Virus record (IMG/VR): IMGVR_UViG_3300032333_000153
Span: 1-56,726 of that record
Origin: a virus
Length of the DNA stretch: 56,726 nt
Direction: 5' to 3' (one strand)
Both the position numbers and the translations under genes were made by a program. This document shows, in pieces, positions 14,238 to 28,667 of this stretch; positions within the stretch are counted from its first letter, which is position 1, and each line of letters opens with the position of its first letter. The notes below the pieces were generated by a model. That model did no database searches. It saw only the letters and a list, made by a program, of their open reading frames with translations, and had not been told where the DNA came from.

Positions 14238-14435
14238 ATGTCTGTTGTGAACTGGGACTTGATCGAGCAGATCGCTCATGAGCTTGGGGTGACGAAGTAC
14301 GCCACCGCCAAGTGGCGGCAGCGCGGGCAAGTCCCCTACAAGTGGCGTCTGCCGATTGTCCTGAAGTCAGACGGGCGGATCCGCTGGGACCAGTACCACA
14401 AGATGGACAATCAGCGCCGTAGGGACGTTAACTGA
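14238..14435 (+). CDS. Cro/YdaS-like helix-turn-helix regulator
   Basis: 65 residues with AAGGGG upstream of the ATG. Residues 8-40 form a small helix-turn-helix of the type found in Cro/YdaS-like proteins: LIEQIAHELGVTKYATAKW then RQRGQVPYKWRLPI. It is a lone rightward gene facing the leftward early operon, in the classic place for a switch regulator, and the shared intergenic region holds two operator-like sites. Its last 25 nt overlap the 3' end of the convergent VRR-NUC gene. Target sites are inferred. Confidence 0.75.
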   Translation: MSVVNWDLIEQIAHELGVTKYATAKWRQRGQVPYKWRLPIVLKSDGRIRWDQYHKMDNQRRRDVN

Positions 14436-21950: not shown

Positions 21951-22127
21951 ATGGAAATCGAACAGTTTAGGTCAATTCTGAACCTTCTGAATCTCAAGGA
22001 GGTTTCGCGCGAAACAGGCGTACACGCCAACACTCTTTACAGGATCGCAGCCGGGGGCGAGCCTAAGTATTCGACCGTGCTTCGCATCATGGTATACCTT
22101 AAGTCAAAGGGGCTCCTGAATGGCTGA
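21951..22127 (+). CDS. Small helix-turn-helix regulator
   Basis: 58 residues from the ATG at 21951 (AGAGG 8 nt upstream; the ATG at 21945 is too close to it). The helix-turn-helix LKEVSRETGVHANTLYRIAA, then EPKYSTVLRIMVYLKSKGLL, resembles minimal Cro/XRE-type proteins. It overlaps the primase/helicase start by 8 nt and faces the leftward operon, so it probably regulates the divergent pair and itself. Confidence 0.7.
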   Translation: MEIEQFRSILNLLNLKEVSRETGVHANTLYRIAAGGEPKYSTVLRIMVYLKSKGLLNG

Positions 22128-24159: not shown

Positions 24160-24365
24160 GGTGAAGCGTACTGAGCGTACCGTACCGTACTTTGGCGTAC
24201 TGAGTACGTTCTGGGCAAGGCGTCGTTGTCCGGGCAGTAGCGTACCGGCGGGGGGGAGGGGCACCGGTACGTACCCCCTTTACAGGGGGACGTCCCCCCG
24301 GTACGTTACGTGGCCCGGACACGATGCGGGCGGTACGGTTCGAGATTTTCATGATGGAGGATGGG
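24160..24365. other. GTAC-rich non-coding region, candidate replication origin
   Basis: The longest gap between genes. GTAC occurs 11 times between 24168 and 24336 where less than one is expected by chance. Direct repeats GCGTACTGAG lie at 24166-24175 and 24195-24204, with further GCGTAC at 24175 and 24240. A G/C-rich part at 24262-24305 can fold: ACCGGTAC, CCCCC-TTTACA-GGGGG and CCCCCCGGTAC. The position right after the primase/helicase gene suits an iteron origin, but a regulatory or termination role is possible. No credible gene is present. Confidence 0.55.
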
Positions 24366-24698
24366 ATGAGAAAGAGGCGTACCTTTTTTGGAAGTAGGCC
24401 GGTCAATCCGGGCTGGGTCGAGCACCCAGAGGTCTTCGAGAGGGATGATGAGACTTGGAAAATATTCTTTAGCCTAAGCTCAGCGGATAAGGGGTACGTG
24501 AACTTCAAAATATTCGCGGACGGGCCTGTGAAGTCGAAGGCAAACTACTGGATCGGGATGAGCCGGAGGCGGTGCTTTAACACCGACCTCGTTCTGCTTC
24601 GTCACCGGGGGGATCTGTACGATTGGGCCATCGAGGAGATGAAAGGAATATTTTCAGATCACATCGGGCCGATCAATGAGGGGGAGTTTGCGCCGTGA
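24366..24698 (+). CDS. Protein of unknown function
   Basis: 110 residues from the ATG at 24366, with GGAGG 5 nt upstream. Basic N-terminus (MRKRRTFFGSRPVNPGW), then a beta-rich body (TWKIFFSLSSADKGYVNFKI, YWIGMSRRRCFN) and an acidic helix. It is AT-richer than the primase/helicase gene. It overlaps the next start by 1 nt (TGATG). No family recognised. Confidence 0.65.
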   Translation: MRKRRTFFGSRPVNPGWVEHPEVFERDDETWKIFFSLSSADKGYVNFKIFADGPVKSKANYWIGMSRRRCFNTDLVLLRHRGDLYDWAIEEMKGIFSDHIGPINEGEFAP

Positions 24699-25211: not shown

Positions 25212-25436
25212 TCAAGTGGGTAGTCGGTTGTATATCCCGTCTATCCAGCAGCACGCGGTCTCCTTGAGCGCCTCCGGCAGGGTGCCGGGGGAGCGGGAGA
25301 TGACCGCAAGCTCGAAGCTGTAGTGCTGGCCATCGTCGGGGTGGTAGACGTCCACGTCGGCGCGCTCGTCGCCCATCGTGTAGCGGACGTGATAGCTGTA
25401 GTCGCGGTGGTAGCCGGAGATATGGAGTTTGGTCAT
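25212..25436 (-). CDS. Small protein of unknown function
   Basis: 74 residues, starting 3 nt after the upstream gene. Tyr/His-rich beta sequence (SGYHRDYSYHVRYTMGDERA) ending in a Cys-containing helix (ETACCWIDGIYNRL). No family recognised. Confidence 0.6.
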   Translation of the reverse strand: MTKLHISGYHRDYSYHVRYTMGDERADVDVYHPDDGQHYSFELAVISRSPGTLPEALKETACCWIDGIYNRLPT

Positions 25437-25439
25437 CGC

Positions 25440-25646
25440 TCAAGCCCTGACGATGTAAGAACCGCCGTCAAGTTCGTAAACTGTGCCGGGATCTAGTTGG
25501 GCCAGAAGATCCTCGACAGCGGCCTCTGGGGTGTTTCCGTAGCCAACAGGATCCGTCCATTCGCCGCCGTACTCCGAGGTGACGGCGACCCAGTCGAGGC
25601 CGGATGTGGCAGCGAAGCCGAGATAGGGGTGGGTTTCAATACGCAT
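25440..25646 (-). CDS. Small protein of unknown function
   Basis: 68 residues from the ATG at 25646; GGAG from the upstream ATGGAG serves as its ribosome site, the same arrangement as in the 25977, 26346 and 27181 genes. Beta-rich with ETHPYLGFAATSGLDWVAVT and AAVEDLLAQLDPG. It resembles small proteins encoded in phage accessory blocks but no name applies. Confidence 0.6.
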   Translation of the reverse strand: MRIETHPYLGFAATSGLDWVAVTSEYGGEWTDPVGYGNTPEAAVEDLLAQLDPGTVYELDGGSYIVRA

Positions 25647-25695: not shown

Positions 25696-25977
25696 TCAGA
25701 CCATGGCCTTGATGTTGACCTTCGGCTTGTCGCGGAGCGTGGTGATGAGCGTCACCTTGGTGCAGGCGGCGACCTGCTCGGCGGTCAGAAGCTCCTTGAC
25801 GGCCTTGGTGTCGAGCGTGGAGCGCTCGGAGAGGCTCACGACGACGGTGGCGTAGTCGCCCTCGATCACCTCAAGGCCGGTGGCCTTGATCTCGGCCTTT
25901 ACGGCCTCGAACTCTTTGGTGAGGGCGTCGATTTCCTGCTTGAGGATGGTGAAGCGGTCGGCGAGGTAAGCGGTCAT
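25696..25977 (-). CDS. Coiled-coil protein under promoter module A
   Basis: 93 residues from the ATG at 25977 with GGAG upstream in ATGGAGCCCAAT. Residues 1-45 form a coiled coil (DRFTILKQEIDALTKEFEAV), then a beta part (EGDYATVVVSLSERSTLDTK) and VAACTKVTLITTLRDKPK. The second half resembles a domain seen in phage proteins adjacent to host-nuclease inhibitors, but I cannot name it. It is transcribed from promoter module A. Confidence 0.65.
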   Translation of the reverse strand: MTAYLADRFTILKQEIDALTKEFEAVKAEIKATGLEVIEGDYATVVVSLSERSTLDTKAVKELLTAEQVAACTKVTLITTLRDKPKVNIKAMV

Positions 25978-26015: not shown

Positions 26016-26045
26016 ACTATACGCGAAATCTTTTCGTGTGGTCAA
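26016..26045 (-). promoter_or_regulatory. Promoter-operator module A
   Basis: Minus strand: TTGACC, 18-nt spacer, TATAGT. The spacer holds CGAAA-AGA-TTTCG. Its -35 hexamer contains the TGA stop of the upstream 43-residue gene. Drives the gene at 25977. Confidence 0.8.
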
Positions 26046-26173
26046 GCGTTCTTTTCGGGGATCCTCATGAGATCCTTGTAGTGGGCGAGCAGGCGCGGAG
26101 AGGCGTAGCGGGCGTCATCGCGGCATATGCCTTGGCGGCGCAGCAGGCGGTAGATCTTTTGAACTTTGGTCAT
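26042..26173 (-). CDS. 43-residue basic protein
   Basis: MTKVQKIYRLLRRQGICRDD, then ARYASPRLLAHYKDLM and a short tail. GAGG lies 6 nt before the ATG, 8 nt after the upstream stop. Two basic helices suggest nucleic-acid binding. Its stop codon is part of promoter module A. Confidence 0.55.
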   Translation of the reverse strand: MTKVQKIYRLLRRQGICRDDARYASPRLLAHYKDLMRIPEKNA

Positions 26174-26181
26174 GGCGAGCC

Positions 26182-26346
26182 TCAGAAGTTGTAGGGCTTG
26201 ATGTTGCGTGCCTTGCAGACGGCGCGGGCCGCGCGCTTGTTGGCGACGAAGACGCGCTCGCCGTTCTGGTATTCTTCGCCGTTGCAGGGGCGAGCGACGA
26301 TGGTGAGCTTGTAGCCGGTGCTGGTCTTGTGGAGGTAGGCGATCAT
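26182..26346 (-). CDS. 54-residue protein under promoter module B (internal start)
   Basis: Begins at the ATG at 26346, with GGAG from ATGGAGCACACA upstream, 34 nt downstream of the -10 of module B. Sequence MIAYLHKTSTGYKLTIVARP, then ANKRAARAVCKARNIKPYNF: a beta hairpin and a basic helix. Same frame as the sigma-like gene, so it can be made alone from its own promoter or as the tail of the fusion. Confidence 0.65.
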   Translation of the reverse strand: MIAYLHKTSTGYKLTIVARPCNGEEYQNGERVFVANKRAARAVCKARNIKPYNF

Positions 26347-26664
26347 TGTGTGCTCCATTGGTGTGTGTTCAACGGATTCACTATAGGCGAAATCTTTTCG
26401 CCCTGTCAACAGGGGCTCGCCACAAAGAGTGCTGTTGTATCGCGTGATGCGTTCGGCCTTGTAGTAGATTTGTCGGGTGCGCTCGCGAGACAGGCCGATC
26501 CGTCGCCCAATCTCGGCGAGCGTAGCCCCGGAGCGGCGGGCCGCCAGCACGTATCGATGGCGCAAGCGGGAAACTTCCCCTCTCGCCCAGTGCGGATCGT
26601 GGCCGCGAGCTAATAGGCGGGCATAGTAACGACCAAGCGTGTTTTTAAACTCAAAACGAGACAT
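26182..26664 (-). CDS. Sigma-70 region 4-like protein, read through in frame into the next gene
   Basis: 160 residues from the ATG at 26664. Residues 30-75 match the sigma region 4 helix-turn-helix: LRHRYVLAARRSGATLAEIG then RRIGLSRERTRQIYYKAERI; GLSRERTRQI is the hallmark of region 4.2. There is no stop before the downstream 54-residue gene, so residues about 85-106 are encoded by promoter module B, and the last 54 are identical to the short gene. It lacks sigma region 2, so it may redirect host RNA polymerase or act as a repressor/activator. Whether the full fusion is made is uncertain. Confidence 0.7.
   Translation of the reverse strand: MSRFEFKNTLGRYYARLLARGHDPHWARGEVSRLRHRYVLAARRSGATLAEIGRRIGLSRERTRQIYYKAERITRYNSTLCGEPLLTGRKDFAYSESVEHTPMEHTMIAYLHKTSTGYKLTIVARPCNGEEYQNGERVFVANKRAARAVCKARNIKPYNF
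26380..26409 (-). promoter_or_regulatory. Promoter-operator module B
   Basis: Minus strand: TTGACA, 18-nt spacer, TATAGT. The spacer holds GGCGAAA-AGA-TTTCGCC, a perfect 7-bp inverted repeat. It lies inside the open frame of the sigma-like gene. Confidence 0.85.
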
Positions 26665-26700
26665 GCCATACTTCTCCGTGTTTATGTGCTTGGATGGTGG
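26651..26700. repeat. 50-bp repeat, copy 1 (pair with 27804-27853)
   Basis: 41 of 50 bases match the segment at 27804-27853. Both copies span the start of a gene beginning Met-Ser-Arg-Phe-Glu on the minus strand. In this copy the other frame still reads QAHKHGEVWHVSF-stop, the end of a gene that is intact only at the second copy, so this looks like a remnant. Confidence 0.65.
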
Positions 26701-26704
26701 GGGC

Positions 26705-27181
26705 TTACCGCTTGCGCGGCTTGCCCGTCTTCGTGAGGGTCGCCTGATAGTCGAGGGCCTGTTGCATTTGCGCAGCCTTCTGTTCCGCGTTGAATCCCTT
26801 GCGAACGGGGGTGTTGGGAGGGGCGATCAGGCCACCGCGCTCTGTGGTGACTTCGAGATAATCCAGAACCTCCCACGCGCCCGTCGTCTTGTTCATCGAC
26901 TTGACGCTGTGATTGGGCTTGATTTCGGTGACGCGGTAGAACTTCCCCGTGCTGTCATTCAACATAAAGTCTCCAACCTGAAGCTGGTCGAGGCGGACTT
27001 TGCGCAGAGCAGAAAGGAAAGCGGCGGCGGCAGCGCCCCGCTTGGTGTAAGCGATACCCTTGCCGTTGCAGCCATAGCAGCGGTCGCCGTCGATCTGGTT
27101 GTAAGAGTAACGACCAGAGCCGCCGCAGCGGGTGCAGGTCTGGGTCTCAAGGGCGGTCGGGGCGGTGCAGGTGATTGTCAT
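26705..27181 (-). CDS. DnaJ-type zinc-finger protein
   Basis: 158 residues from the ATG at 27181 with GGAG in ATGGAGTTAGAC upstream. CTRCGGSGRYSYNQ and CYGCNGKG form a CxxCxGxG pair as in the DnaJ zinc region. A beta-rich middle part (LQVGDFMLNDSTGKFYRVTE) and a helical basic tail follow. Proteins of this type recur in phage accessory regions; binding to nucleic acid or protein is possible. Transcribed from promoter module C. Confidence 0.7.
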   Translation of the reverse strand: MTITCTAPTALETQTCTRCGGSGRYSYNQIDGDRCYGCNGKGIAYTKRGAAAAAFLSALRKVRLDQLQVGDFMLNDSTGKFYRVTEIKPNHSVKSMNKTTGAWEVLDYLEVTTERGGLIAPPNTPVRKGFNAEQKAAQMQQALDYQATLTKTGKPRKR

Positions 27182-27214
27182 GTCTAACTCCATCAGTGTG
27201 TATTCGATGGAGTG

Positions 27215-27244
27215 ACTATAGGCGAAAAGATTTCGCCTTGTCAA
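27215..27244 (-). promoter_or_regulatory. Promoter-operator module C
   Basis: Minus strand: TTGACA, 18-nt spacer, TATAGT. The spacer holds GGCGAAA-TCT-TTTCGCC, a perfect 7-bp inverted repeat with the central trinucleotide inverted relative to modules A, B and D. Drives the DnaJ-type zinc-finger gene. Confidence 0.85.
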
Positions 27245-27284
27245 GCGGGGTCACGTTGCTTTTATTCGCCACGGCCTTCTGTGA

Positions 27285-27509
27285 TTAGCTGCGTCGTATG
27301 AGATCAATGACCTCTTGGATCTCGGGTCCGACTGACGTGACATAGTTCATACGTTCGTCGCGTATCGCGAACTCCAAGAAGCCAACAACAATCGCCAGCG
27401 CTTTATCGCGATCCTTGGGCAGTGACACCATGCACGGTACGATGCGCTTTTCGCTGGAGTTGTCCAAGTGACGCTCGTACTGCATCTTCGCCACCTTGCG
27501 TGCGTCCAT
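27285..27509 (-). CDS. Small protein of unknown function
   Basis: 74 residues, CAGGAG upstream of the ATG. A basic start (MDARKVAKMQYERHLDNS) then a hydrophobic helix (DKALAIVVGFLEFAIRDERM) and an acidic end. No family recognised. It lies between module C and a zinc-ribbon gene. Confidence 0.6.
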   Translation of the reverse strand: MDARKVAKMQYERHLDNSSEKRIVPCMVSLPKDRDKALAIVVGFLEFAIRDERMNYVTSVGPEIQEVIDLIRRS

Positions 27510-27565
27510 GCTTGTCTCCTGTAGTTACCAATCGTAGGTAAACGGCTCATCGACGGAATTACCCG

Positions 27566-27817
27566 TCAACGACCGTTGCACCAGAAAGTTTCAGAATATT
27601 CGCGCGGCCAGCGGTGGCTGTTGTCGGCGGAGCAGTGGGGGCAGGTGATGGATCCTCGCCACGTCTCGACGTGCTCAACCAAGTCGCCCCGGTTGTAGTG
27701 CCAGTCAACGAAGCGCCACTTGCATTCAAACGCGATTGGGGAGGCGGCTGGCTTGCCGCACTCCCCGCAGATGTAGCTGACTGTGGTTTTGTCTGTGTAC
27801 CGTTCAAAACGGGACAT
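27566..27817 (-). CDS. Zinc-ribbon protein
   Basis: 83 residues from the ATG at 27817 (GGAGAGG upstream). SYICGECGKPAASPI and ITCPHCSADN supply two CxxC pairs for a zinc site, separated by WRFVDWHYNRGDLVEHVETW. It starts Met-Ser-Arg-Phe-Glu like the sigma-like gene because the DNA around both starts is duplicated. Function unknown. Confidence 0.65.
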   Translation of the reverse strand: MSRFERYTDKTTVSYICGECGKPAASPIAFECKWRFVDWHYNRGDLVEHVETWRGSITCPHCSADNSHRWPREYSETFWCNGR

Positions 27818-27853
27818 GCCAGACCTCTCCGCGCTCATGCGCTTGGAGGGCGG
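27804..27853. repeat. 50-bp repeat, copy 2 (pair with 26651-26700)
   Basis: 41 of 50 bases match copy 1. Here both the upstream gene end (QAHERGEVWHVPF) and the downstream gene start are intact, so this is probably the parent copy. Confidence 0.65.
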
Positions 27854-27953
27854 AGGCAAGCTCCAGCCGCAAGTGGGCGGCGGGCTCGTCCTGCCACTCG
27901 GCCTCCGCGATACGCTCGCGGAGGGCCTTGATGTGAGCGGTGAGGAGGATCAC
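27804..27953 (-). CDS. 49-residue helical protein
   Basis: Starts at a GTG that overlaps the upstream TGA (GTGA). A single long amphipathic helix (LTAHIKALRERIAEAEWQDE, HLRLELASALQAHERGEVW). Ends 13 nt inside the next gene. A copy of its last 13 residues survives in front of the sigma-like gene. Confidence 0.6.
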   Translation of the reverse strand: MILLTAHIKALRERIAEAEWQDEPAAHLRLELASALQAHERGEVWHVPF

Positions 27954-28240
27954 CACTGCGCGTGCTCGACGCACTCGTCGAGGATCAAGTCGCAGAAGTT
28001 CTTGTCGGCGATCACGACTGTGGTGACGGCCTCGAAGATCGGGTGACCGAGGCGGTAGACCTGCGTCACGTTCTTGGCGTTGGTGGCGGTGACGCTGTGG
28101 ATGTACCAGTCGTTGTCTTCGACTTCGATCTGGAGTTCGCCATTGAACATCACGCCGGCGAGGACGGCGTCGAGGCAAAGCTCCTCAACGGGGTAGACGC
28201 AGGCGGCGAGTTCACGGTCGGCGGTGTCGGGGTTGAACAT
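27950..28240 (-). CDS. Protein of unknown function under promoter module D
   Basis: 96 residues, AGGAG upstream of the ATG. Acidic, mixed alpha/beta (ELCLDAVLAGVMFNGELQIE, YRLGHPIFEAVTTVVIADKN). Three cysteines. First gene of a three-gene leftward unit with overlapping stops and starts. No family recognised. Confidence 0.65.
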   Translation of the reverse strand: MFNPDTADRELAACVYPVEELCLDAVLAGVMFNGELQIEVEDNDWYIHSVTATNAKNVTQVYRLGHPIFEAVTTVVIADKNFCDLILDECVEHAQW

Positions 28241-28279
28241 CTGTAATCTCCTAAGTTGGTGTGTCGCTGTGACAGGATC

Positions 28280-28308
28280 TTTATAGGCGAAATCTTTTCG
28301 GGTGTCAA
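28280..28308 (-). promoter_or_regulatory. Promoter-operator module D
   Basis: Minus strand: TTGACA, 17-nt spacer, TATAAA. The spacer holds CCGAAA-AGA-TTTCGCC. Drives the leftward unit beginning at 28240. Only 12 nt separate it from the GACAATTTGTC operator at 28321. Confidence 0.85.
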
Positions 28309-28385: not shown

Positions 28386-28667
28386 ATGGCAGGCGAAAAC
28401 AATCAGTTAGCATCAATCGTGGAGCGTATCGAGAAGCTCGAGGACGAGAAGGCCATGCTGGCCGAGGACATCAAGGAGGTCTACGCCGAGGCCAAGGGCA
28501 ACGGGTTCGACCCCAAGATCCTCCGCAAGATCGTGGCCATGCGCAAGCAGGACGCGGACAAGCGGCGCGCGGAGCAGGCCGTGCTGGCGGTCTACATGAC
28601 GGAGCTGGGCATGCTCGCCGACACTCCGCTCGGGCAGGCGGCAATCGAGCGGGCGAGGGGCAAGTGA
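28386..28667 (+). CDS. gapR-like: GapR-like nucleoid-associated protein (DUF2312)
   Basis: 93 residues, close to the usual length of GapR. The pattern NQLASIVERIEKLEDEKAM, EDIKEVYAEAKGNGFDPKIL, RKIVAMRKQD and a C-terminal helix matches DUF2312 well. In Caulobacter GapR binds overtwisted DNA ahead of replication and transcription and helps topoisomerases. A phage copy may support its own replication or upset host chromosome organisation. It is the first rightward gene after the operator region and overlaps the next gene by 1 nt (TGATG). Confidence 0.9.
   Translation: MAGENNQLASIVERIEKLEDEKAMLAEDIKEVYAEAKGNGFDPKILRKIVAMRKQDADKRRAEQAVLAVYMTELGMLADTPLGQAAIERARGK

Follow-up and report, generated by a model that had tools for sequence, protein, structure and literature searches.

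For ten repressors of the Aca/AcrIIA1 type that have been tested, the site of action is an inverted repeat within the core promoter of the operon that encodes them (PMC9410906). Repressors of the Cro/CI type (434, P22, P2 C) have an XRE fold and palindromic operators that overlap early promoters. Repeated operators are described for Cluster A mycobacteriophages, where a single immunity repressor acts on repeated sites (stoperators) and the operator types differ between phages (PMC9283540). Finally, TgrL of the Caulobacter phage phi-CbK is an XRE-family repressor with early expression that has been described on host promoters (PMC10462132). The locus analysed here shares features with each of these systems, and differs from each of them.

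The window, i.e. the whole stretch of DNA under study, is an entire IMG/VR virus record of 56.7 kb with 60% G+C, in which profile searches identified phage-type genes (terminase, portal, capsid, primase-helicase, recombination). Four sigma-70-type promoters, TTGAC(A/C), 17-18 nt, TATA(G/A)(T/A), lie on its minus strand between 26016 and 28308. All four carry a CGAAA-N3-TTTCG palindrome between -35 and -10, and each is followed by a ribosome-binding site and then a small ORF (Table 1). This arrangement, already proposed in an earlier note on the sequence, was borne out by a pattern search: the full promoter-palindrome pattern gave four matches in the record, none elsewhere in it, and none in 100 dinucleotide shuffles of the sequence. 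Likewise, CGAAANNNTTTCG has exactly four exact matches in the window, all of them at the A-D promoters. The 13-mer operator ends exactly 2 bp from the -10 box in all four copies, at a distance of 2 or 3 bp from the -35 box. Two copies do have extended arms, albeit not of 7 bp in both cases as previously stated, the longest being 8 bp in copy C and the next 7 bp in copy B; the eighth arm pair of copy C is formed by the last -35 base and the first -10 base. The central triplet is AGA in copies A, B and D as opposed to TCT in copy C, so that in copy C the 13-mer stands as its exact reverse complement. The gene set had been called dispersed, a description that does not suit four tandem, co-directional promoters within 2.3 kb.

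Table 1. Positions of the promoters, genes and other features of the window discussed in the text.
Feature	Position	Strand	Description
Promoter copy A	26045-26016	-	TTGACC-18 nt-TATAGT; operator CGAAAAGATTTCG; 5-bp arms; ahead of the operon of gene A and the proposed repressor
Promoter copy B	26409-26380	-	TTGACA-18-TATAGT; 7-bp arms; ahead of gene B
Promoter copy C	27244-27215	-	TTGACA-18-TATAGT; operator reversed (CGAAATCTTTTCG); 8-bp arms; ahead of gene C
Promoter copy D	28308-28280	-	TTGACA-17-TATAAA; 5-bp arms; ahead of gene D; divergent from the GapR gene
Gene A, 93 aa	25696..25977	-	Conserved first gene behind copy A; no assigned function
Small gene of gene-A operon	25440..25646	-	No assigned function
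Small gene of gene-A operon	25212..25436	-	No assigned function
XRE helix-turn-helix (HTH) protein, 69 aa	24940..25149	-	Proposed repressor; last gene of the gene-A operon
Gene B, 54 aa	26182..26346	-	Behind copy B; no assigned function
Gene C, 158 aa	26705..27181	-	Behind copy C; CxxC zinc-binding-like motif as in anti-TRAP/DnaJ (weak matches)
Gene D, 96 aa	27950..28240	-	Behind copy D; no assigned function
Sigma-4-like HTH ORF	26182-26664	-	
GapR (DUF2312) gene	28386-28667	+	Divergent from copy D
58-aa HTH protein	21951-22127		
CI-like HTH protein	14238-14435		
Copy C leader	27191-27225	-	Possible stem-loop
Promoter-like site	24279-24320	+	Palindrome GGGGGACGTCCCCC in the spacer
Gene downstream of this site	24366-24698	+	

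Relatives were collected from IMG/VR with gene A (25699-25977) as query, and not with the DNA motif; gene A was used because the HTH-family alignment was too diverse as a seed for a collection scan. The searches returned 45 and then 60 loci of uncultured phages, partly overlapping. A loose pattern, TTGAC-N3..5-GAAANNNTTTC-N-TATA, gave many unrelated matches in IMG/VR among the matches listed, and was consequently left out of the statistics. A spaced dyad was observed in the core promoter of 29 out of 43 non-redundant gene-A promoters, compared to 3.7 expected from shuffles and 7 in the adjacent downstream stretch. No clear dyad was found at the gene-A promoters of L158, L161 and L164. The earlier note had staked its proposal on the presence of the palindrome at orthologous promoters; it is indeed present there, with its sequence changed and its symmetry kept. 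The gene-A promoter reads GCGAAA-N3-TTTCGC in the window's group, GCGAAT-TTT-ATTCGC in L163/L168, CCGGAAA-N3-TTTCCGG in L140, TGCCC-N3-GGGCA in L156/L162/L213, TGAAGATTCTTCA in L166, TGGTTTTAAACCA in L155 and TGTAGC-N5-GCTACA in L212, and a second promoter of L144 carries CCAGAAATAAGTTCTGG. Many phages have their own operator version at 2-4 promoters (three each in L140, L163, L190 and L227, four in L168). In the whole records of L054 and L163, about 55 kb each, the exact core operator occurs three times, each time at a promoter in the gene-A neighbourhood and nowhere else. The operator centre varies within a single phage (ACG, CGG and TGG in L140) and is therefore probably not read. The inverted triplet of copy C had been taken as a sign that only symmetry matters, which agrees with the free centre of the relatives; within the window itself, the copies are one 13-mer in either orientation. 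As both arms change while the dyad is kept, a symmetric DNA-binding protein would read the palindrome, and we consider the motif, on the strength of these sequence comparisons, to be real and functional as an operator.

In most relatives that have sufficient sequence downstream, gene A is followed, usually within 0.4-2 kb, by a small XRE-type HTH gene; no HTH was detected in the available stretch of L164, L169, L231 and L234. In the window, its product matches HTH_3 in hmmscan with an E-value of 2.3e-4, just below Pfam's cut-off. The AlphaFold2 model of the protein (pLDDT 94) consists of five helices, comprising residues 3-12, 17-24, 28-35, 43-54 and 59-68. HigA2 and Aca2 are its nearest matches in Foldseek, and the 434 repressor and P2 C were also retrieved, all with E-values >0.01, as is usual for folds so small. 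A profile search of PDB chains returned Aca2 (E 0.0016), the 434 repressor (0.0026), Aca3 (0.19) and Aca1 (0.25). Aligned by eye, the recognition helix fits that of the 434 repressor without a gap, and the helix positions match residue for residue.

Repressor and operator change together from virus to virus, on account of which the XRE protein very probably reads the operator. For the covariation, 20 related groups were compared, several of the operators having been assigned by manual curation. The more alike two proteins are at helix positions 28, 29, 32 and 33, the more alike are their half-sites, with a partial r of 0.49 once the rest of the domain is accounted for (p 5e-5), and of 0.47 when gene-A identity was also removed (permutation p 1e-4, 20 groups), the Mantel-type permutation test being approximate. 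Proteins that are only 25-45% identical outside the helix but alike within it have half-sites in common, i.e. GCGAA in L128 and L163 (helix PR..QL), GGAAG in L138 and L202 (DR..RS), and TGCCC in L156 and L213 ([DE]R..YK). Within the main clade, residue 32 fully sets base -6: Q, D or E occur with C, R, H or G with G, and S with A. The same residue came first in a column scan of the main clade (p 0.003, uncorrected for about 60 columns); an unguided column scan of all 20 groups was dominated, and hence confounded, by the deep split between two clades. From the covariation we infer that the XRE protein binds the operators, and it is the likely regulator of the four promoters. The idea of one phage HTH regulator for a set of accessory genes is thus upheld by the kept dyad, the 2-4 promoters per phage and the recognition-helix covariation. 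The earlier note had named an HTH protein or the sigma-region-4-like protein in this role; the former is supported, in the shape of the XRE protein that it did not single out, and the latter is not (see below).

We consider it probable that the palindromes serve as operators of the 69-aa XRE repressor that the phage itself encodes, an arrangement which would provide a timed negative-feedback off-switch of the Aca/Cro type. The four strong promoters would be transcribed by host sigma-70 RNA polymerase at an early stage of infection. With growing amounts of repressor, dimers would occupy the palindromes between -35 and -10 and block the polymerase, so that the operon of the repressor and the remaining small accessory genes would be shut off jointly. 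Read-through from D, C and B into the repressor gene is possible, and this, combined with the last position of the gene in the copy-A operon, would produce a burst of early expression before the joint shut-off. With a near-consensus promoter, a normal spacer and a dimer on the spacer palindrome, RNA polymerase should be excluded. From such site geometry and by analogy we infer repression as opposed to activation by the protein, which would bind the sites as a dimer and come into action once the early burst is over.

The likeness to Aca systems lies in a small HTH gene that ends an operon of small genes, as seen in the window and most relatives, and in an inverted repeat that lies within that operon's core promoter, as seen for copy A and for 29/43 relatives. 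The nearest Aca by fold is Aca2 of phage ZF40 (Foldseek 0.9 Å over 55 residues, 27% identity), but the XRE protein is without the C-terminal extension of Aca2 (69 versus 116-125 aa). Moreover, the operator is common to several promoters per phage, and no known acr gene was found. For the latter reason, and because the protein is by sequence no closer to Aca2 than to XRE proteins in general, the system is not filed as Aca. In contrast to the two-repressor switch of Cro/CI-type systems, there is one operator per promoter and the regulator is inside the regulated operon; nor was a tyrosine integrase or a relative in bacterial genomes found here. With Cluster A phages the locus shares one repressor, several repeated sites and phage-specific operator types. 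Their stoperators, however, are asymmetric 13-mers, more than 20 over the genome of a temperate phage and bound by a monomer, whereas here palindromes are present only at 2-4 promoters. TgrL is similarly an early XRE-family repressor from a phage of an alphaproteobacterium, although the sites described here are the phage's own promoters.

The same HTH protein could bind the palindromes and yet activate the promoters, like MerR-type spacer binders or restriction-modification controllers. Controller proteins (C.Kpn2I, C.BclI, C.Esp1396I) are indeed among the Foldseek matches of the model, and some relatives have weaker -35 or -10 boxes. Still, a protein on the spacer should hinder the polymerase, and an operon-terminal repressor gene fits negative feedback. 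The window promoters are close to consensus with spacers of 17-18 nt, as opposed to the dyad in a 19-20-nt spacer of the MerR type, so that neither an activator nor spacer untwisting is needed. Activation is therefore regarded as unlikely. Should the palindromes instead be read by a host transcription factor, with no phage protein involved, the host regulator could supply timing or host sensing, and TgrL of phi-CbK and Caulobacter XRE proteins are known to share sites (PMC10462132). This is very unlikely in view of operators that differ between closely syntenic phages, and that track the phage-encoded HTH also with gene-A relatedness removed.

We assign an equally low probability to a different phage-encoded reader, for which the sigma-4-like protein, the 58-aa HTH, the CI-like HTH and GapR were considered. 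All four are DNA-binding-like, and some are close to the sites. The sigma-4-like protein and the 58-aa HTH are confined to about ten near loci, and the former has close copies in the nearest relatives alone, plus a single copy of 35% identity in L131. In the 56-kb record of L163, with its three operators, the CI-like HTH did not turn up, and GapR is conserved beside the island, yet the operators differ greatly. None of the four follows the operator in distribution or variation, and the sigma-4-like and other HTH proteins were rejected as the regulator by their distribution. That a promoter-leader cassette was merely copied, leaving a palindrome with no regulatory role, would agree with the common centre triplet and similar leaders (ACACACCAATGGAG) of the window copies. 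However, copying alone would not yield arms that both change with symmetry kept across phages, and the arms track the HTH helix, which renders this explanation extremely improbable. Repression by the XRE protein is the reading adopted in the following.

Gene A is the constant member of the regulon, and the other operator-led genes are mostly phage-specific orphans of about 50-270 aa. The genes tested gave no match to named anti-defence families, including anti-CRISPR, in PHROGs, Pfam and NCBIfam (named families only). PADLOC matches of gene D as Cas5f-like were weak (E 0.004) and judged marginal. The operator-led orphans fit accessory or counter-defence genes; as none of them was recognised as a known anti-defence gene, anti-CRISPR or other, the anti-defence role is put forward as a hypothesis. 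An Aca-like regulon of counter-defence proteins, made up of gene A and phage-specific small orphans in a large uncultured non-lysogenic phage group, is accordingly a possibility that we entertain with some doubt. If this is so, the operator could serve in each phage as a searchable tag for counter-defence genes, with a natural specificity code formed between half-site and recognition helix. The pairing of repressor and operator gives an orphan promoter motif its probable protein partner, with a specificity code that can be tested over about 20 natural variants. Orphan genes that are controlled jointly are marked by the operator, offering a route to candidate early anti-defence or host-takeover genes. 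While an Aca/Cro-like autorepressor is of a kind already known, the multi-promoter regulon, the operator-repressor covariation (about 20 variants) and the setting in uncultured, apparently non-lysogenic phages are new. The operon-terminal autorepressor with its core-promoter inverted repeat would thereby extend from single acr operons to a multi-promoter regulon with no visible integrase.

The sigma-4-like ORF runs on in frame, with no stop, across promoter B and into gene B, so that promoter B falls within a reading frame of 160 aa. L089, L111, L129 and L133 have this open fusion as well, suggesting a long and a short product.

Phage_integrase (PF00589) gave no match in the window or in seven relatives, in a search for tyrosine integrases on records that are possibly incomplete; a gene-A scan of bacterial genomes found no relative. 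With the same reservation as to incomplete records, a role in lysogenic immunity is therefore unlikely, and the phage group is apparently non-lysogenic. GapR is an alphaproteobacterial chromosome-structuring protein family, and a homologue is found near gene A in 38 of the compared loci. The host is judged to be alphaproteobacterial from the GapR gene alone. Named phages gave no match to gene A and a single, distant HTH match, from the record of a Microcystis phage. Microcystis-labelled phage records (including L183, Mvi-Yong1342-1) share with the window DNA over the GapR gene, or have an HTH 45% identical to the repressor. In reality, these phages may infect an alphaproteobacterium present in the Microcystis culture.

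For copies C and B, the leader could fold into a stem-loop that takes in the Shine-Dalgarno region (z -3.7 and -2.5, respectively), and small stem-loops of other kinds occur near the expected start in many relatives' leaders. A leader hairpin as a general second layer of control was dropped, as the leader set as a whole is weakly structured (mean z only -0.9 over 21 leaders), with copies B and C individually stable. On the opposite strand, an unrelated promoter-like site with a palindrome of its own in the spacer sits upstream of a plus-strand gene (Table 1). It is also present in L089, L111 and L135, and its palindrome is possibly a second type of operator.
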